Origin: an uncultured Gammaproteobacteria bacterium
GTDB lineage: Bacteria; Pseudomonadota; Gammaproteobacteria; SZUA-229
Reading direction: 5' to 3'
Length of the DNA: 33,618 nt
Assembly: GCA_913065105.1 (NCBI GenBank)
Contig: CAJXZZ010000029.1
Location: 1 to 33,618, forward strand
The notes beneath the pieces were generated by a model. The model searched no databases and was not told the DNA's origin. It saw nothing but the letters and a program-made list of their open reading frames with translations. Of the stretch, positions 1-30,097 are shown one piece after another. Numbering within the stretch: position 1 is the first letter of the stretch; each line of letters opens with the position of its first letter. The position numbers and the translations under genes were made by a program.

Positions 1-2
1 GG

Positions 3-248
3 CATGTGGTGTGTGACAGTGGCCCGTACCGGTTTGTGCGGCATCCGGGTTATGCCGGAAATATTCTTGCACTGTTCGGTATTGTTCTTGCTCTGGGCTC
101 GGTATGGACACTGATTCCTGCGGCGGTGGCATCAATCATCACGGTGATTAGAACCGTACTTGAAGACCAGACTTTACAGGAAGAGTTGCCGGGCTATCGA
201 GACTATGCACGACGCGTGCGCTATCGGTTGATTCCTGGGATATACTGA
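3..248 (+). CDS. Isoprenylcysteine carboxyl methyltransferase (ICMT/PEMT)-family protein, C-terminal part
   Basis: The reading frame is open at the left edge, so only the last ~81 residues are visible and the true start lies outside. The fragment has the family signature SGPYRFVRHPGYAGN near its beginning, a hydrophobic stretch (ALFGIVLALGSVWTLIPAAVASI), then the C-terminal block EELPGYRDYARRVRYRLIPG. These are typical of integral-membrane SAM-dependent methyltransferases of the ICMT/phospholipid methyltransferase superfamily. The substrate cannot be told; bacterial members act on varied lipids or small molecules. An attC site follows 80 bp downstream in the same orientation, so this may be the gene of the first visible cassette, but it could equally be ordinary chromosomal sequence. 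Confidence 0.8.
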   Translation, partial: HVVCDSGPYRFVRHPGYAGNILALFGIVLALGSVWTLIPAAVASIITVIRTVLEDQTLQEELPGYRDYARRVRYRLIPGIY

Positions 249-328
249 GAGAGTTGATTGCTGGATGTCCCAGATCAGTTAGGAACTAGTTATGTGTTTC
301 ATATATTTACATCAGGAGCACATCAATC

Positions 329-395
329 TCCTAACAATTCGCTCCAGCCGACGTCGTCGCTAACGCGCCGCCTCGGCTGAGCTTAAACGTTAGAA
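329..395 (+). other. attC recombination site 1
   Basis: R'' box TCCTAAC (329-335) pairs with R' box GTTAGAA (389-395). The inner stem is GCTC-C-AGCCG against CGGCTGAGC, leaving one unpaired C. This is the extrahelical-base design that IntI uses to choose the bottom strand. Confidence 0.88.
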
Positions 396-414
396 ATTAA
401 AAAGGAAAAACTTT

Positions 415-816
415 ATGGTATCTATGAAAGCAGAACGATCCATTTGGATTTGGATTATTACTATCATCGCAGTTATATTTGGTTTGCTTACCATCAAGTC
501 TGGCGGATCGGTTTTGTTTGTTGATGGTGTCGCTAGAGAAGAAGCCGGTAACTTTGTGCCATTTGTTATCTGGTTTAATTTTCTCGCAGGTTTTGCTTAT
601 CTTATAGCTGGAGCTGGCTTGTTCATGCAAAAACTCTGGGCTGCGTGGATGTCCGTTTTTATTGTTGTCGCAACCATTGTCATATTTGCACTTTTTGGAT
701 TACACATACTAAATGAAGGAATGTACGAATTCCGTACAGTAGCGGCTATGAGTTTACGAACTGTCATTTGGGCATTAATTGCAACGTTTGCTTATAGAAA
801 TATTATTCGTCAATAA
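415..816 (+). CDS. Cassette-encoded small integral membrane protein
   Basis: This 133-residue protein has about four hydrophobic segments: roughly residues 9-27 (WIWIITIIAVIFGLLTI), 48-69, 74-97 and 110-128. I do not recognise a named family. The start ATG lies 8 nt after an AAGGA ribosome-binding site that begins only 7 nt after the R' box of attC 1, so the cassette carries its own translation signal; a second in-frame ATG is three codons later. It is the only gene between attC 1 and attC 2. Small membrane proteins of unknown role are common cargo in chromosomal integrons. No catalytic motif is visible, so no function is proposed. Confidence 0.8.
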   Translation: MVSMKAERSIWIWIITIIAVIFGLLTIKSGGSVLFVDGVAREEAGNFVPFVIWFNFLAGFAYLIAGAGLFMQKLWAAWMSVFIVVATIVIFALFGLHILNEGMYEFRTVAAMSLRTVIWALIATFAYRNIIRQ

Positions 817-833
817 TTTGTAAAAAACAGTTT

Positions 834-910
834 CTAACAAGGCACTCCAGTTGACCACCAAAAGCGGTGTTTCACTTGCTTTTGGAGTCAGCTGAGCTAA
901 ATCGCGATAC
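834..910 (+). other. attC recombination site 2, with a degenerate R' box
   Basis: The left box is CTAAC (834-838). The stem is long: CTC-C-AG with CTGAG, TGAC with GTCA, and CAAAAGC with GCTTTTG, including an extrahelical C. The right box, normally GTTRRRY, reads GATACCC or similar around 904-912 and no longer complements CTAAC. The fold is clearly attC-like, but the crossover box seems altered. Confidence 0.7.
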
Positions 911-912
911 CC

Positions 913-1329
913 ATGAATAAAAATAAAAGTGCAAAAATAATAGCCCCATTAATTGTTATGCCATTATCATATATTGGCGTAGTAATTATAAATGGTTCAC
1001 ATCCTGAATCATTTTTAGATTTTATCGAGACAATACTATTTATAGCGATTATTTCTTTACCTGTAGGTTATGCAGGTTTGTTTCTAATAGTATTGCCTAT
1101 TGAAAAAATTTTAAAAAAAGGAAAACATACATCCCCCTTCATTCTTATATTATTATGCAGTCTTTGTGGTGGCACTATATTATTATCTCTAGACATATTA
1201 TTTATGCCAGGTCATGGGGGTTTTGAATTCTCACAGTTCTTATTTGTTTTCCCAATGGGGTTTGCTCTGGGCATGGCTGTTTCACTAAGCTACGTGCTAA
1301 TATCAGGTATAAAAAATCGTCCAACTTGA
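913..1329 (+). CDS. Cassette-encoded small membrane protein, AT-rich
   Basis: This 138-residue protein is almost entirely hydrophobic, with about four membrane segments (roughly residues 10-27, 35-62, 75-96 and 110-132). Family not recognised. The codons are markedly AT-rich compared with the ubi genes further right, which fits a transferred cassette. The ATG follows the degenerate right end of attC 2 by 2-3 nt and has no clear Shine-Dalgarno sequence, so translation may be weak or start elsewhere. The last few codons enter the R'' box of attC 3. A short cytoplasmic KKGKH patch lies between membrane segments 2 and 3. No function is proposed. Confidence 0.72.
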   Translation: MNKNKSAKIIAPLIVMPLSYIGVVIINGSHPESFLDFIETILFIAIISLPVGYAGLFLIVLPIEKILKKGKHTSPFILILLCSLCGGTILLSLDILFMPGHGGFEFSQFLFVFPMGFALGMAVSLSYVLISGIKNRPT

Positions 1330-1396
1330 CCCACATAAGCGCCGTTACGCTTCGCTACACTCTACTTTTGCGTTCAAGTTAACTCAAACGTTATGC
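1319..1396 (+). other. attC recombination site 3
   Basis: R'' box GTCCAAC (1319-1325) fits RYYYAAC, and R' box GTTATGC (1390-1396) fits GTTRRRY. The stem AACTTGA pairs with TCAAGTT, and an inner hairpin AAGCG/CGCTT closes the loop. The R'' box overlaps the end of the preceding gene. Confidence 0.82.
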
Positions 1397-1416
1397 TTAA
1401 AAAATAAGGAGGAACT

Positions 1417-1854
1417 GTGCAAGAAATTATAGGATGGGGATTATTGATTATGGGAGGTGCGCTATATCTTGCCCAAGTCATTTCATCCGTCAATTTCCAG
1501 TTAGCACAGCGATTGGGTATTCAAGAGAAATCTGAATTTACGGATCAAATATTACAAAGGTCAGAGCGATACACTGCTTATTGGGATTTACTTACACTTG
1601 GGTGGTTACCCTTAGCCGGCGTTCTTATGATTATCAATCATGAATGGTGGCCAATAATGTCACTGATTGGCGGTGCAATATATTTAGATACCTCAGGTAG
1701 AGAGGCGGCAAAAAATATTAGCTTTCGCCATGAAGGTATTAAAGTCGGCACAGAAAAGCAGAAAAAATTATTTTTTTCGAGTTATATAATTATGGCAGTT
1801 ATAGCCGTAATCGTCATTACATACTCTGTCAGCGTTCTGGTATCAAGACTTTGA
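1417..1854 (+). CDS. Cassette-encoded membrane protein, GTG start
   Basis: This 145-residue protein has an N-terminal membrane segment (GWGLLIMGGALYLAQVI), a charged stretch (LAQRLGIQEKSEFTDQILQRSERY), two central hydrophobic segments around residues 55-90, a KVGTEKQKKL stretch, and a C-terminal segment (SSYIIMAVIAVIVITY). I do not recognise the family. GTG is chosen because a near-ideal AAGGAGG lies 6 nt upstream, the strongest ribosome-binding site in the array. It is the sole gene between attC 3 and attC 4. No enzymatic motif is visible. Confidence 0.8.
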   Translation: MQEIIGWGLLIMGGALYLAQVISSVNFQLAQRLGIQEKSEFTDQILQRSERYTAYWDLLTLGWLPLAGVLMIINHEWWPIMSLIGGAIYLDTSGREAAKNISFRHEGIKVGTEKQKKLFFSSYIIMAVIAVIVITYSVSVLVSRL

Positions 1855-1890
1855 ATTCTTACATATCAAAAATCTTTACTAGGAATATCA

Positions 1891-1951
1891 GCATAACAAG
1901 TCAATTAACTGCGACCGCAAAAAGCGCGTCGCGTTATTTCAAACGTTAGGG
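1891..1951 (+). other. attC recombination site 4 (short)
   Basis: R'' box GCATAAC (1891-1897) and R' box GTTAGGG (1945-1951). The stem AAC-T-GCGAC pairs with GTCGCGTT, leaving an unpaired T as the extrahelical base. At 61 bp it is the shortest site of the array. Confidence 0.85.
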
Positions 1952-1969
1952 CTCACAGTCAATTATGCT

Positions 1970-2677
1970 ATGAAGGTTGTATTATTAATCGTCATTTTAT
2001 TTCTGTTGACAGCGTGCTCGTCAAAGCCATATGCGGTTAAATACACTGAAATTCCTACTGTGGCTGGACAAGAAGAAATATATATAGTGAACCATGGTTG
2101 GCATACTGGAATTGTTGTCCCTGCCAAAAAAATTCAAAATCAACTTCCTAAGTTAAGGAAAAGGTTTGGGGATATACCTTATATAGAATTCGGGTGGGGT
2201 GATAAGGATTACTATCAAGCTAAAGAAATAACAACAGGCCTAACTCTAAACGCAATACTTTGGCCAACGGAGTCGGTTATCCATGCAGTGGCTGTGCCTA
2301 AGAAAGCTGATAAGTATTTCGCAAATAGTATAGTCGAGGTATTATGCCTTAGTGGAAGAGAGTACTCTTCTCTATTACGATTTATTTCAGAAAGTTTTTA
2401 TAAAGATGAGCATGGTGAAATATTAGAGCTTAAGGGTGGAATATATGGAAATAGTCAGTTTTATAAAGGGGTAGGTAATTTTTATTTCATGAACACATGC
2501 AATAAATGGACGGCTAAAGGACTAAAAAGCGCAGGAATGGATATATCTCCTACCTTTAAATTAACTGCTGGCAGTATTATGGATTATATGAAGGAATATA
2601 GGCAAGCCCTAACAATGGGTTCCACCGGACATTCAAATGCTGCGCCGCTTCGCACTGCACCTTTTGAATGCCAGTGA
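1970..2677 (+). CDS. DUF2459 (TIGR02117-type) lipoprotein in a cassette
   Basis: This 235-residue protein begins with a lipoprotein signal (residues 1-16, lipobox LLTAC, lipidated Cys16). The body matches DUF2459/TIGR02117: NHGWHTGIVVP around residue 40, then FGWGDKDYYQ, then NTCNKWTAKGLKSAG. Family members are uncharacterised envelope proteins, and I know of no proven reaction. The last ~23 residues (from about residue 213, after YRQALT) are encoded by attC 5 itself, so the natural C-terminus was probably replaced when the gene became a cassette. No good Shine-Dalgarno lies at the normal distance; the GTTAGGG of attC 4 is ~19 nt upstream of the ATG. Confidence 0.82.
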   Translation: MKVVLLIVILFLLTACSSKPYAVKYTEIPTVAGQEEIYIVNHGWHTGIVVPAKKIQNQLPKLRKRFGDIPYIEFGWGDKDYYQAKEITTGLTLNAILWPTESVIHAVAVPKKADKYFANSIVEVLCLSGREYSSLLRFISESFYKDEHGEILELKGGIYGNSQFYKGVGNFYFMNTCNKWTAKGLKSAGMDISPTFKLTAGSIMDYMKEYRQALTMGSTGHSNAAPLRTAPFECQ

Positions 2678-2692
2678 ACGCAAGCGTTATGC
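2607..2692 (+). other. attC recombination site 5
   Basis: R'' box CCCTAAC (2607-2613) and R' box GTTATGC (2686-2692). The long stem is CATTCAAA against TTTGAATG, extended by TTCCACCGG against CCAGTGAA with unpaired bases. The DUF2459 ORF reads through most of it. Confidence 0.88.
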
Positions 2693-2713
2693 ATCAACCT
2701 TGAAGAGACACAC

Positions 2714-3601
2714 ATGAGTCACGGTCATATTTTAGACGGCATTAGGTACATTCTTCGTAGTCCATCTAACGAAGTAATCGCGTCCTGGCCCGATGATACT
2801 AACGTCATCGACACAGACGTTGGTAAGATCAGGATTAAAGATACTGGAGGCAATAAACCAGCTTTAGTCATGGTTCCTGATGGACCCTGCGTCATTGAGC
2901 ATTTCGAATCTTTGATCACCGAATTGTTGCCTCATTTCAGGGTTATCTGTTTCGATATGCCCGGTCTCGGTTTTTCTTATCCTAGATTAAGTTATGATTT
3001 TGGGCTTGAGCAAAATACAAAAATTATCATTTCAGTGATGGATGCACTTAAGATCGAAAGAGCAATACTCTCCTTTTCTTGCTCTAACAGTTATATTGCT
3101 ATTGCTGTGGCAAAATACTTTCCGGAGCGGGTTTCCAGACTAGTCCTTGCTCAAACACCCTCAATACATGAAATGAAAAATCAATGGACAAAACGCAATG
3201 TTCCAAAACCAATACAGCTTCCATATATAGGTCAAACTATTAATGCGATTATGTCTAAAAAAATGGCTTCAATATGGTACGACATGGCCCTACCAAGAGA
3301 TAGTCAGCACAAAGAAGATTTTGTAAACCTCTCTCTATCTGCTCTTCATTCGGGAGGCTGCTTTTGTCTGGCAAGCATCGTACAGGGTGTCCGTAACGTT
3401 GATGATAATGAGCTAAACGGTATAGAGGTTCCAACCACGATGGTATGGGGCAATAAAGACTGGTCTCATAAGAATACAAAATTTGAGAGCTTTCGTGAAC
3501 ATGTGCCTCATTGTGAAATACTTGAATTTGATGGTTGCGGCCACTTTCCAAATTTGGAGCAACCCAGGGCATTTGCTGCATTGTTACGGGATGCTCAGTA
3601 A
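2714..3601 (+). CDS. Alpha/beta-hydrolase-fold protein with Cys at the nucleophile position
   Basis: This 295-residue protein has the alpha/beta hydrolase pattern: strand LVMVPDGP, FDMPGLGFSYP (residues ~80-90), a nucleophile elbow, an acid at Asp249 in VWGNKDW, and the catalytic-type His277 in DGCGHFPNLEQP. The elbow reads FSCSNSYIAIAVA (121-133). Aligned by eye with the common GHSxGGxxAxxxA block, Cys123 takes the place of the usual Ser and Asn125 that of the first Gly. A Cys-Asp-His triad is known in dienelactone hydrolases, so it may still be active, but the substrate is unknown. It is the single gene of its cassette, with GAAGAGA before the ATG, and it stops 2 bp before attC 6. Confidence 0.85.
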   Translation: MSHGHILDGIRYILRSPSNEVIASWPDDTNVIDTDVGKIRIKDTGGNKPALVMVPDGPCVIEHFESLITELLPHFRVICFDMPGLGFSYPRLSYDFGLEQNTKIIISVMDALKIERAILSFSCSNSYIAIAVAKYFPERVSRLVLAQTPSIHEMKNQWTKRNVPKPIQLPYIGQTINAIMSKKMASIWYDMALPRDSQHKEDFVNLSLSALHSGGCFCLASIVQGVRNVDDNELNGIEVPTTMVWGNKDWSHKNTKFESFREHVPHCEILEFDGCGHFPNLEQPRAFAALLRDAQ

Positions 3602-3603
3602 TT

Positions 3604-3691
3604 GCCTAACAAGGCAAATGCACTCGGACGCCAAAAAGCGCCGCACCTTCGTTGCTTTGCTTTTTGCCGCCGGTGATTTGCGGCGTTATGC
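3604..3691 (+). other. attC recombination site 6 (last visible)
   Basis: R'' box GCCTAAC (3604-3610) and R' box GTTATGC (3685-3691) both match consensus perfectly. The stem CAAAT-G-CAC-T-CGG pairs with CCG-GTG-ATTTG, and the inner CAAAAAGC pairs with GCTTTTTG, leaving extrahelical bases. It ends the recognisable array. Confidence 0.9.
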
Positions 3692-3707
3692 ATATAAGGA
3701 TTAAAAA

Positions 3708-4202
3708 ATGAAAATAGAATCATCATGGATATTTGACTGCCTTCCAGAAGATATTTACCCTCACTTCTTTTACTCCACAATGGATGACTCGTACCCAATA
3801 GCCTTCCGCTTAGGCATACCAAAACCTTTAAGCTGCAAAGTTTTAGAGGGTGAGCCTAAGGTAGGCAACACTCGTCAATGTACTACTGACAAAGGCTATA
3901 TTCAGCAAAATATAATAGAGCTTGTTGAGAACACTAAACTTGTCTATCAAATGAATGATAGCAATGTCTGGTGTAAAAACTGGGTTAGTTTTTTACAAGA
4001 CTCATTTATCTTAGAAGCTATCGATGATAATAAAACCAAAGTAAAACGCATTACTGAATTTAGAGGTGTAATACACATACCTGTATTTAGTACAATTGCT
4101 TTATGGTTCTCTTTAAAGCAAGCACATCGCTATGCATCCAAAAACTGGCGCAGACTTTCTACAGAAACAAAGAATAGTCGCTTATCTCTAGTCAATTCAT
4201 AA
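3708..4202 (+). CDS. SRPBCC (START/polyketide cyclase-like) domain protein
   Basis: This 164-residue protein starts with the SRPBCC-like strand IESSWIFDCLPEDIYPHF. It alternates strands through CKVLEGEPKVGNTRQC and ENTKLVYQMND and ends in an amphipathic helix (ALWFSLKQAHRYASKNWRRL). Members bind hydrophobic ligands or act as cyclases and aromatases; the ligand here is unknown. The ATG is 17 bp after attC 6 with an AAGGA ribosome-binding site, like the cassette genes, but no attC follows. It is therefore either a final cassette that lost its site or the first chromosomal gene right of the array. Confidence 0.7.
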   Translation: MKIESSWIFDCLPEDIYPHFFYSTMDDSYPIAFRLGIPKPLSCKVLEGEPKVGNTRQCTTDKGYIQQNIIELVENTKLVYQMNDSNVWCKNWVSFLQDSFILEAIDDNKTKVKRITEFRGVIHIPVFSTIALWFSLKQAHRYASKNWRRLSTETKNSRLSLVNS

Positions 4203-4247
4203 AAAACTTTTAACAATTATTAAAACATTATATTCAAAGGACAAAAT

Positions 4248-4649
4248 ATGGATGCACCACTTACAAAAGGTATTCATCACATCGGTTTAACCGTTTCTAA
4301 ACTTGAAGAAAGTGCGAAATTTTTTATCTCTTTATTAGGTTGGAATGAGGTGCGCAGGAACAAGGAATATCCCGCTATATTTGTAAGCGATGGCAGTATT
4401 ATGGTTACTCTTTGGGAAACAAAGGAAGAACCGTCAAACCAGTTTGATAAAAACAAAAACGTTGGGTTGCACCATGTTGCGTTTCACGTTGAAAGTGAAG
4501 CGGATTTAAACAACCTTTATGAAAAGCTAGTAAATAGCGGTGTGAAAATTGAGTTTTCACCAGAGTTATTGGGGCCAGGGCCTGCGAAACACATGATATG
4601 TTATGAACCAAGTGGCATCCGGATAGAATTCACCTGGCCCGGTATCTAA
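4248..4649 (+). CDS. VOC superfamily (glyoxalase/dioxygenase-fold) protein
   Basis: This 133-residue protein has two beta-alpha-beta-beta-beta modules. Module 1 begins GIHHIGLTVSKLEESAKFF with His10/11 as a likely metal ligand. Module 2 begins VGLHHVAFHVESEADL with a second His, and the closing strand GIRIEFTWPG supplies the metal-binding Glu. These are the usual ligands of VOC metalloenzymes such as glyoxalase I and extradiol dioxygenases, but residues alone do not fix the reaction. An AAAGGA ribosome-binding site precedes the ATG. The gene is 45 bp after the SRPBCC gene and may be co-transcribed with it. Confidence 0.88.
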   Translation: MDAPLTKGIHHIGLTVSKLEESAKFFISLLGWNEVRRNKEYPAIFVSDGSIMVTLWETKEEPSNQFDKNKNVGLHHVAFHVESEADLNNLYEKLVNSGVKIEFSPELLGPGPAKHMICYEPSGIRIEFTWPGI

Positions 4650-4723
4650 ATTTATAATTAATCAACAATAAAAGTCATCGGACTCATCATTATAAGAGAT
4701 GAAAATATAATAATTTTACACCT

Positions 4724-4737
4724 ATGATTATAATCAT
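4724..4737. promoter_or_regulatory. Perfect 14-bp palindrome upstream of the Spy-like gene, FNR-like
   Basis: ATGATTATAATCAT is its own reverse complement. It has the FNR spacing (NTGAT-N4-ATCAN) but both outer bases differ from TTGAT-N4-ATCAA. A -10-like TATAGA at 4761-4766 puts its centre near -42. That -10 lies inside another inverted repeat, GCGTAT-AG-ATACGC (4758-4771), which could be a separate operator. Binding protein uncertain. Confidence 0.4.
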
Positions 4738-4802
4738 TTGGTCTGCTAGATTTCCTGGCGTATAGATACGCTGTTATTAATTCAATAAACAAGAGCACTA
4801 TT

Positions 4803-5393
4803 ATGTTACGTTACAGTATTATTATATTTTCAATATTATGCATATCTTTCACAAATGTCGTTATTGCATCTCAGCAATATCAGTCCAAGTATGTTGGCCA
4901 GGAAAAGCGGCTGATTAAAAGCCTTTCTAAAGATGATATCGAGCAGCTCAAAAATGGTAAAGGCTGGGGTTTAGCTAAAGCCGCTGAATTAAATGGTATG
5001 CCGGGACCTTCACATATCTTACAGATGAAAGATGAGATATCACTTTCGAAAGAACAGGAAGAAAAGATTCGCTCACTGTTTGAGGACATGAAATCCAAAG
5101 CGATTCCGTTAGGAAATGAATTGATTGGATTAGAGAGAAAGCTTAATGAATCATTTGCAAATAGAACAATAACAAGTGAACTTTTAGATCAGCAATTAAG
5201 TTCTATTTCTGAAGTGCGTAAAAACCTTCGCTACGTACATCTTCAAACTCATCTGGTCACACCAACAATTCTCACGGCTGAACAAATACATAAGTATAAT
5301 CAACTGAGAGGTTATGGATCTGATGATGCCTGTGATAACCCACCTAAAGGCCATGACAGTAAAATGTGGAAGGAGCATAATGATTGCCAGTGA
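4803..5393 (+). CDS. Periplasmic Spy/CpxP-like protein
   Basis: This 196-residue protein has a cleavable signal peptide (residues ~1-22, IIIFSILCISFTNVVIA). The mature part contains LSKDDIEQLKNGKGWGLAKAAELNG, a block found in periplasmic Spy/CpxP-related proteins, followed by helices typical of that fold: EISLSKEQEEKIRSLFEDM, ELIGLERKLNESF and a long helix through RKNLRYVHLQTHL. Relatives act as ATP-independent chaperones or metal- and stress-sensing proteins in the periplasm. The C-terminus is polar with two Cys. The gene stands alone behind two palindromes (4724-4737 and 4758-4771), which suggests tight regulation. The assignment rests on the pattern only. Confidence 0.72.
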   Translation: MLRYSIIIFSILCISFTNVVIASQQYQSKYVGQEKRLIKSLSKDDIEQLKNGKGWGLAKAAELNGMPGPSHILQMKDEISLSKEQEEKIRSLFEDMKSKAIPLGNELIGLERKLNESFANRTITSELLDQQLSSISEVRKNLRYVHLQTHLVTPTILTAEQIHKYNQLRGYGSDDACDNPPKGHDSKMWKEHNDCQ

Positions 5394-5429
5394 TAGTGGC
5401 CAGGCAGGACGAAAATTACGATATAACAA

Positions 5430-5443
5430 TTGATAAAAATCAA
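5430..5443. promoter_or_regulatory. FNR/Dnr-type box (exact consensus) upstream of yhcC-ubiUV
   Basis: TTGAT-AAAA-ATCAA matches the FNR consensus at every defined base. It lies 107 bp before the first start codon of the anaerobic ubiquinone operon, in intergenic sequence. A second box lies 51 bp downstream (centre to centre), so it could act as an upstream activator site. Confidence 0.72.
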
Positions 5444-5480
5444 GGCGCAGACTCCTTGAAACTAACAAAAACTCCCCGCT

Positions 5481-5494
5481 TTGATGTAGATCAT
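5481..5494. promoter_or_regulatory. FNR/Dnr-type box (one mismatch) upstream of yhcC-ubiUV
   Basis: TTGAT-GTAG-ATCAT differs from the consensus only at the last base. With its centre at 5487.5, a start near 5529 would place it at -41.5, the class II position. The AT-rich TATTAATACAAAAT (5509-5522) could supply the -10. The leader to the ATG would be only ~20 nt. Confidence 0.6.
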
Positions 5495-5549
5495 TTATTT
5501 TCAACTGTATTAATACAAAATGGTCATTCTTTTGTTGACAGTGTTTTAA

Positions 5550-6524
5550 ATGAACCTAGCACAATATGTAAATACTTTCGGTCAGGCGATGCTGGCGCGT
5601 TATGGAGAACGTGTACATAAGATTGCCATTGATGCCGGGCTTACCTGTCCCAATCGTGATGGCACCATCGGTCGTGGTGGTTGCACATTTTGTAACAATG
5701 TTTCATTCAGTCCCAACGGGCGAAGACCCAATCAGATTGCTGATCAGATCGAAGCGGGTCGACAGGTCATAAGAAAACGCACCGGTGCAAAAAAATATAT
5801 CGCTTATTTTCAGGCTTATACCAATACCTATGCTGATGTTCGTGAGCTCACTCGATTATATGATGAGGCCTTGAGAGAACCTGATGTTATTGGACTGGAT
5901 ATAGGCACCCGACCTGATTGTGTGCCGGATGATGTGCTCGATCTACTGGTTGATTATCAACAACAGGGATACGAGGTCTGGCTGGATCTCGGTCTGCAGT
6001 CCGCTTTTGATGCCACGCTAAAACATGTCAACAGAGGCCACGGTTTTGCTGAATATAAAGAGGCAACGTTAAAAGCTCGCAGTCGCGGAATCAAAGTATG
6101 CACGCATCTTATCCTGGGGTTACCGGGTGAATCTACCGAACATCATATAACGTCACTTGAGCGTGTGCTTGACCTTGGTGTTGATGGTCTTAAGTTTCAT
6201 CCGTTACATGTTGTTAAAGGCACGCAGCTTGCTAATGAGTGGCGACGTGGTGAGTATCAGCCGCTGACCATGGATGAATATGTTCTTGATGTTGTTGAGC
6301 TGATTAATCGCACACCTGATGAGGTTATCTTTCATCGTCTGACCGGCACAGCGTCATCAAATGTTTTGCTTGCGCCGCAGTGGTGTTCGAAAAAATGGCA
6401 GGTGCTCAATAGCATAACGACAGAGCTTGCCAAACAGGCTAAACACGTGAAACACATTGCCAGCAATAAAGATGAAAGTTCTGATCTGCTGTTAGCCGCA
6501 GATTTAGCTTTTGTACCAGTATGA
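5550..6524 (+). CDS. yhcC: YhcC/TIGR01212-family radical SAM protein
   Basis: This 324-residue protein matches the TIGR01212 (E. coli YhcC) family along its length: VHKIAIDAGLTCPNRDGTIG, the [4Fe-4S]-binding Cys33-X11-Cys45-X2-Cys48 (GRGGCTFCNN), YFQAYTNTYAD, GLDIGTRPDCVPDDVLDLL and LILGLPGES. The spaced CX11CX2C replaces the common CX3CX2C. The reaction is unknown in any species I know of. An in-frame TAA directly precedes the ATG, so this is the earliest possible start, although no Shine-Dalgarno is visible. It heads a tight gene run (15 bp to the methyltransferase, which is 8 bp from ubiU) behind two FNR-type boxes. Confidence 0.9.
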   Translation: MNLAQYVNTFGQAMLARYGERVHKIAIDAGLTCPNRDGTIGRGGCTFCNNVSFSPNGRRPNQIADQIEAGRQVIRKRTGAKKYIAYFQAYTNTYADVRELTRLYDEALREPDVIGLDIGTRPDCVPDDVLDLLVDYQQQGYEVWLDLGLQSAFDATLKHVNRGHGFAEYKEATLKARSRGIKVCTHLILGLPGESTEHHITSLERVLDLGVDGLKFHPLHVVKGTQLANEWRRGEYQPLTMDEYVLDVVELINRTPDEVIFHRLTGTASSNVLLAPQWCSKKWQVLNSITTELAKQAKHVKHIASNKDESSDLLLAADLAFVPV

Positions 6525-28318: not shown

Positions 28319-28337
28319 GTCTTTGCACGATTATAGC

Positions 28338-28388
28338 TTGACGTGGGAAATATTACCACATAATATTGCTCGTGGGAATTAATCCCAC
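28338..28388 (+). promoter_or_regulatory. Promoter of the propeller gene with two GTGGGA/TCCCAC-type operators
   Basis: -35 TTGACG (28338-28343), 17-bp spacer, -10 TAATAT (28361-28366), start near 28373. Operator A GTGGGAAATATTACCAC (28343-28359) fills the spacer. Operator B GTGGGAATTAATCCCAC (28372-28388) begins at the start point. Both are inverted repeats of 17 bp, 29 bp apart. The same design recurs at 30019-30072. Binding at either copy would block RNA polymerase, so a repressor is expected. Confidence 0.72.
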
Positions 28389-28432
28389 ATAGTTAAATAT
28401 CATCTAGTAACAATTAAACAAAAGAGTTATTT

Positions 28433-29969: not shown

Positions 29970-30018
29970 CTTTGAGCACTATATAGCGTCAGGAGTGTTT
30001 TTTTCGTGCGATATTTTC

Positions 30019-30072
30019 TTGACGTGGGAAAATTTACCACGCATAATTACTGTGAGTGGGAAATAATCCCAC
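30019..30072 (+). promoter_or_regulatory. Promoter of the Q/N-rich gene with two GTGGGA/TCCCAC-type operators
   Basis: -35 TTGACG (30019-30024), 17-bp spacer, -10 CATAAT (30042-30047), start near 30054. Operator A' GTGGGAAAATTTACCAC (30024-30040) sits in the spacer, and operator B' GTGGGAAATAATCCCAC (30056-30072) at the start. The layout copies the propeller promoter with 32 instead of 29 bp between operators. Confidence 0.72.
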
Positions 30073-30097
30073 ATTTGATAATTAGAGGATAAAGAAG

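Follow-up and report, generated by a model that had tools for sequence, protein, structure and literature searches.

Where is the integrase of this cassette array? The question arises from the left side of one contig (C29, 33,618 bp, analysed whole and called the window here) in the 3.06 Mb genome, in 147 contigs, of an uncultured gammaproteobacterium, where the initial annotation had seen an array with no integrase in view. Each cassette of an integron is a gene plus an attC, and the integrase IntI recombines the folded bottom strand of the attC at G|TT in the R' box; with attI as the partner a cassette is captured, and with a second attC it is excised. In our opinion the array is real and ordinary, a new example of a known system and not an integrase-less oddity, and it is likely to be the attI-distal, outer end of a chromosomal integron that went in between nrdJ and mnmL and whose integrase and attI are on another contig, C59.

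Are the sites really attC sites? The answer is yes for all six, which lie between 329 and 3691, one per gene, each at the 3' end of a + strand gene (Table 1); six ORFs and six sites, one gene and then one attC, make the pattern that defines an array. To avoid circularity, we built a covariance model, R1, from 13 attC sites of class 1 and other plasmid integrons (those of aadA1, catB3, dfrA22, arr-3, OXA-2 and others, taken from annotated plasmid integrons and none from this genome), aligned with the R and L pairings imposed, and scanned both strands of the window with filters off. The top five matches are five of our sites, all on the + strand, with E between 3e-8 and 3e-4; site 2 ranks sixth, at 13.8 bits and E 0.2 and with the wrong 3' end, and the best match elsewhere in the window reaches 13.2 bits. 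R1 also finds matches beside the intI genes of other genomes, and at E<=0.1 it finds none in 182 kb made up of 13 loci homologous to the mnmL locus in other genomes. The covariance-model check proposed with the initial annotation was therefore passed by five of the six sites, the sixth being supported by the match to its own cassette start, and the attC identity claimed there is borne out by the R1 matches together with the complementarity to own boundaries described below. Site 6 is, in addition, about 78% identical by blastn to the attC of ere (erythromycin-esterase) cassettes at cassette junctions on pALTS31 and Providencia plasmids, and this ere-cassette attC had been kept out of the R1 training set. 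Neither the window nor C59 has a match in Rfam, and a loose regular-expression scan for R''/R' pairs was useless alone, with 97 of them on a single strand of the window.

That there are six sites was confirmed, though not at the 61-88 bp first quoted for them: we find 67, 79, 90, 61, 86 and 88 bp. The accompanying idea, that mixed lengths are a sign of capture from several sources, proved weak, the mixture being not beyond the genome-wide background: attC sites elsewhere in the genome show the same division by length, into about 57-79 and 85-93 bp, and the mean pairwise identity is 0.57 within the window against 0.58 for the other sites of the genome.

Table 1. Cassettes, attC sites and right flank of the array, with positions in the window; R1, score under the covariance model; fold z, bottom-strand DNA folding against shuffles.
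Feature	Position	Strand	Description
Cassette 1	1-389	+	Cut by contig end; ORF 3-248, C-terminal part of ICMT/PEMT-type membrane methyltransferase (Pfam PEMT 1e-9, ICMT 2e-7)
attC site 1	329-395	+	67 bp; R'' TCCTAAC, R' GTTAGAA; R1 31.6 bits, E 6e-6; fold z -4.8
Cassette 2	390-904	+	ORF 415-816, 133 aa, 3 hydrophobic segments, no family; R'' TTCTAAC perfectly complementary to own GTTAGAA
attC site 2	832-910	+	79 bp, decayed; R' GCGATAC, not GTTRRRY; R1 13.8 bits; fold z -2.0
Cassette 3	905-1390	+	ORF 913-1329, 138 aa, 4 hydrophobic segments, no family
attC site 3	1307-1396	+	90 bp; R'' GTATAAA, R' GTTATGC; R1 25.2 bits, E 3e-4; fold z -1.2
Cassette 4	1391-1945	+	ORF 1417-1854, 145 aa, 2 hydrophobic segments, no family; R'' GCATAAC perfectly complementary to own GTTATGC
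attC site 4	1891-1951	+	61 bp; R1 25.7 bits, E 2e-4; fold z -2.3
Cassette 5	1946-2686	+	ORF 1970-2677, 235 aa, DUF2459/TIGR02117 lipoprotein; R'' CCCTAAC perfectly complementary to own GTTAGGG
attC site 5	2607-2692	+	86 bp; R1 40.7 bits, E 3e-8; fold z -2.4
Cassette 6	2687-3685	+	ORF 2714-3601, 295 aa, alpha/beta hydrolase (Abhydrolase_1 1e-14)
attC site 6	3604-3691	+	88 bp; R1 39.9 bits; fold z -3.6
Tail without attC	3686-5480	+	Lineage-specific; right limit of insertion approximate
Tail ORFs	3708-4202; 4248-4649; 4803-5393	+	Unknown; VOC/glyoxalase; weak LTXXQ
Ancestral right flank	5481-6524	+	TTGATGTAGATCATT-like box 5481-5495; mnmL/ytqA radical SAM gene 5550-6524

Did these genes ever move as cassettes? 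Once cassettes sit in an array, the final six bases of each attC are part of the cassette that follows, and the true partner of R'' is the first hexamer of its own cassette. This is what we see: most R'' boxes pair with the beginning of the cassette they close, which lies 400-900 bp upstream, and not with the neighbouring R'. When 21 cassettes from across the genome are taken together, 72 of 84 positions match the own boundary as against 52 of 84 for the adjacent R', and boundaries shuffled in 100,000 permutations give a mean of 43 matches and a maximum of 61. Within the window the pairing is 7/7 for cassettes 2, 4 and 5, and cassette 3 matches its own boundary at 4/4 informative positions despite mutations in both cores (the R'' of site 3 has its final core base changed, where ...AAC is expected); four of the five testable cassettes thus match in full at informative positions, and for cassette 6 the own and adjacent boxes fit equally (6/7). 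The 5' boundary of cassette 1, lost beyond the contig end, is predicted to be GTTAGGA. The junctions at G|TT agree with the circular form of the attC, in which R'' is joined to the 5' boundary of its own cassette, and the window cassettes have therefore existed as circles. Comparing R'' with the start of its own cassette makes a simple statistical test for real cassettes.

Site 2, whose end was chosen manually from the sequence ahead of the own-boundary test, is a real but decayed attC, with a mutated R' box and an intact own-boundary match. Its G|TT has become G|CG, and it is probably inactive in its array form; because the G|TT is lost, genes 2 and 3 have probably been locked together as one unit by the loss of mobility of this site.

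As for the cargo, the description of it as mostly membrane or envelope proteins was accurate: we count four membrane proteins (the cut methyltransferase and three small hydrophobic proteins), one lipoprotein and, as the sixth, one soluble hydrolase. The lipoprotein has the lipobox LTAC and scores 160 bits against a TIGR02117 cut-off of 131, the 3' end of its gene overlapping the attC, and the model nearest to the hydrolase is 3-oxoadipate enol-lactonase (PcaD), at 83 bits, far under the cut-off of 256. Distant plasmid homologues, mostly alphaproteobacterial, exist for the first small hydrophobic protein; none was found on plasmids for the third, and the defence (PADLOC) and phage (PHROGs) libraries gave no convincing assignment for the cargo.

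What, then, of the integrase? That none is in view holds for the window and fails for the genome, which has two full-length integron integrases, one on C59 (428 bits to TIGR02249, cut-off 265) and one on C10 (418 bits). Both align end to end with the V. cholerae IntI structure 2A3V and keep the active-site R, K, HxxR, H and Y, and this mark of a complete integron, an integrase of the family with its catalytic residues, is accordingly found in the genome and outside the window. Read in the direction of the window, C59 carries nrdJ, a short partner gene of nrdJ with an intact C-terminus, intI (reversed and convergent), an attI region, a cassette, an attC, a cassette, a damaged attC and the contig end. 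The attI, defined by position and repeats alone, holds repeats of the type CCCTTAAATATCGTAATAGGGCGCC and is joined to a cassette that starts TTATGTG and has CACATAAC as its R'', so that C59 shows the other mark of a complete integron, an attI beside intI to which a cassette is joined, at AAG|TT or an equivalent point. Where the C59 array ends, the second site has a damaged R' (CGTAAGC), and there follow, up to the contig end, a terminator-like hairpin and about 200 bp unlike a coding cassette, which speaks against a link with the window. On C10 (L030 1-1407) the second complete integrase is accompanied by an attI-like region and by a GNAT cassette that the contig end truncates. A related genome (L132 7545-8531, G011:C127) holds an IntI that is 87% identical to the C59 integrase, has a TAA stop inside and is not beside nrdJ in the flank seen.

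The link between C59 and the window comes from relatives. The closest named ones by mnmL (TIGR01212, 381 bits) are assemblies from uncultured Gammaproteobacteria, among which one bears the label Thiotrichaceae and another Thiotrichales. Relatives keep the gene order of the window from mnmL rightward, but not over its first 5.4 kb. In seven relatives (L031, L033, L036, L037, L039, L040 and L042) the partner gene of nrdJ is found to the left of mnmL, 83-1963 bp from it and pointing the same way, and because of this C59, reversed, and the window fit as the left and right flanks of one insertion; among the 12 closest mnmL loci, 5 have no nrdJ visible next to mnmL, in some cases owing to short contigs. 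The simplest history would be that a single chromosomal integron entered between nrdJ and mnmL and that its two ends were assembled into separate contigs; the window would then be on the far side of the assembly gap from the C59 intI and attI. No sequence spans C59 to C29, contig ends could not be joined by overlap (window 1-400 finds no match in the genome other than itself), and the join, drawn from synteny across this unsequenced gap, is the best reading; that one of the two intI genes belongs to the window array is very probable. The intI would be missing from the window because the contig ends inside the array, an assembly effect. More generally, where an assembly is fragmented, the synteny of relatives can lead from a seemingly integrase-less array back to its probable integrase. 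The integron may be active today, and its distal cassettes may be poorly expressed; a consensus scan of L006 1200-1800 for a sigma-70-like promoter found none, which does not exclude a Pc.

We have of course considered other explanations. The array might be a CALIN element, a group of attC sites with no neighbouring integrase that arose when intI was lost or through integration off target or in trans, and it would then have no connection with the C59 integron; such clusters are common and, like chromosomal integrons with diverse cassettes, well described (PMC8618304, PMC9668308, PMC9229058). The window indeed contains no intI, and there are other array pieces in the genome, some with attI-like sites and no intI. 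However, the absence of intI cannot be read from an array that runs off the end of its contig, and a complete intI sits beside the very gene that neighbours mnmL in seven relatives, which leaves us regarding this origin as unlikely. The second intI and some ten other attC contigs could also neighbour the window, and an array that belonged to the C10 integron would be attractive in that C10 offers a full intI and an attI-like region and that its array also leaves its contig, inside the GNAT cassette. That, however, would require a rearrangement to bring it next to mnmL, and no C10 gene is near mnmL in the relatives examined, making this a very improbable origin.

The most sceptical position, that small unrelated genes are here separated by inverted repeats that are terminator-like or due to chance, can draw on folding alone, by which site 3 is no better than shuffles and site 2 is marginal. 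Against it are the R1 matches, the occurrence of one site per gene on a single strand, the homology of site 6 to a known attC at cassette junctions and the complementarity to own boundaries, and we give it almost no chance; the R1 matches in the window, the clean 182 kb of homologous loci and the own-boundary test refute it.

To return to the proposed chromosomal integron between nrdJ and mnmL, its right side contains 1.8 kb without attC between site 6 and the mnmL promoter, a point against this reading. This tail is missing from the mnmL loci of relatives, and when its three genes were sought in 39 other genomes only one VOC homologue turned up, and its locus has no relation to mnmL. The three genes may represent a final cassette whose site has gone, or acquired DNA of another kind. 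The FNR-box-like palindrome upstream of mnmL, TTGATGTAGATCATT, is intact and is kept in several relatives.

How does the locus compare with known systems? With the sedentary chromosomal integrons of the Vibrio, Shewanella and Xanthomonas type it has in common a chromosomal setting, an intI of the TIGR02249 family, an attI and single-gene cassettes of mostly unknown function in one orientation, but its attC sites are diverse instead of near-identical repeats, and its array is in several assembly pieces. CALIN elements resemble it as attC clusters with no intI within view, whereas the absence here is apparent, coming from the contig end, with an intact intI at the syntenic left flank. The likeness of site 6 to the ere attC recalls plasmid-borne mobile integron cassettes, from which the locus differs in its chromosomal setting and in having no recognised resistance cargo.

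The genome as a whole suggests an integron-rich lineage in which some attI-like sites have no intI. R1 detects more arrays, on C14, C27, C126 and C101, as well as lone sites on C123, C98, C66, C65, C104 and C76, and strong attC hits number 17 in this genome as against 0-4 in 17 congeners. One unlikely idea is that this genome holds a scattered network of sites worked in trans by one or two integrases, with the window array as a node; more ordinary alternatives would be that intI was deleted at every such place or that attI fragments were duplicated wholesale. The attI-like sequences without intI on C66 (L122 853-955), C98 (L121 632-899) and C14 (L117 1286-1447) are 73-95% identical to the C59/C66 attI-like sequence, each continues at AAG|TT into a cassette with an R'' complementary to the hexamer at the junction, and no intI remnants were found beside them; C66 and C98 have a further upstream block in common. 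Similar attI-like sequences with no intI match nearby occur in two congeners (L143, G011:C97:452-548, and L144, G004:C2:27634-27694), the G011 site having an inserted cassette that appears non-coding. Finally, a repeat of about 57 bp, 82% identical between its copies at 28337-28390 and 30018-30074 of the window, is also present on C101.
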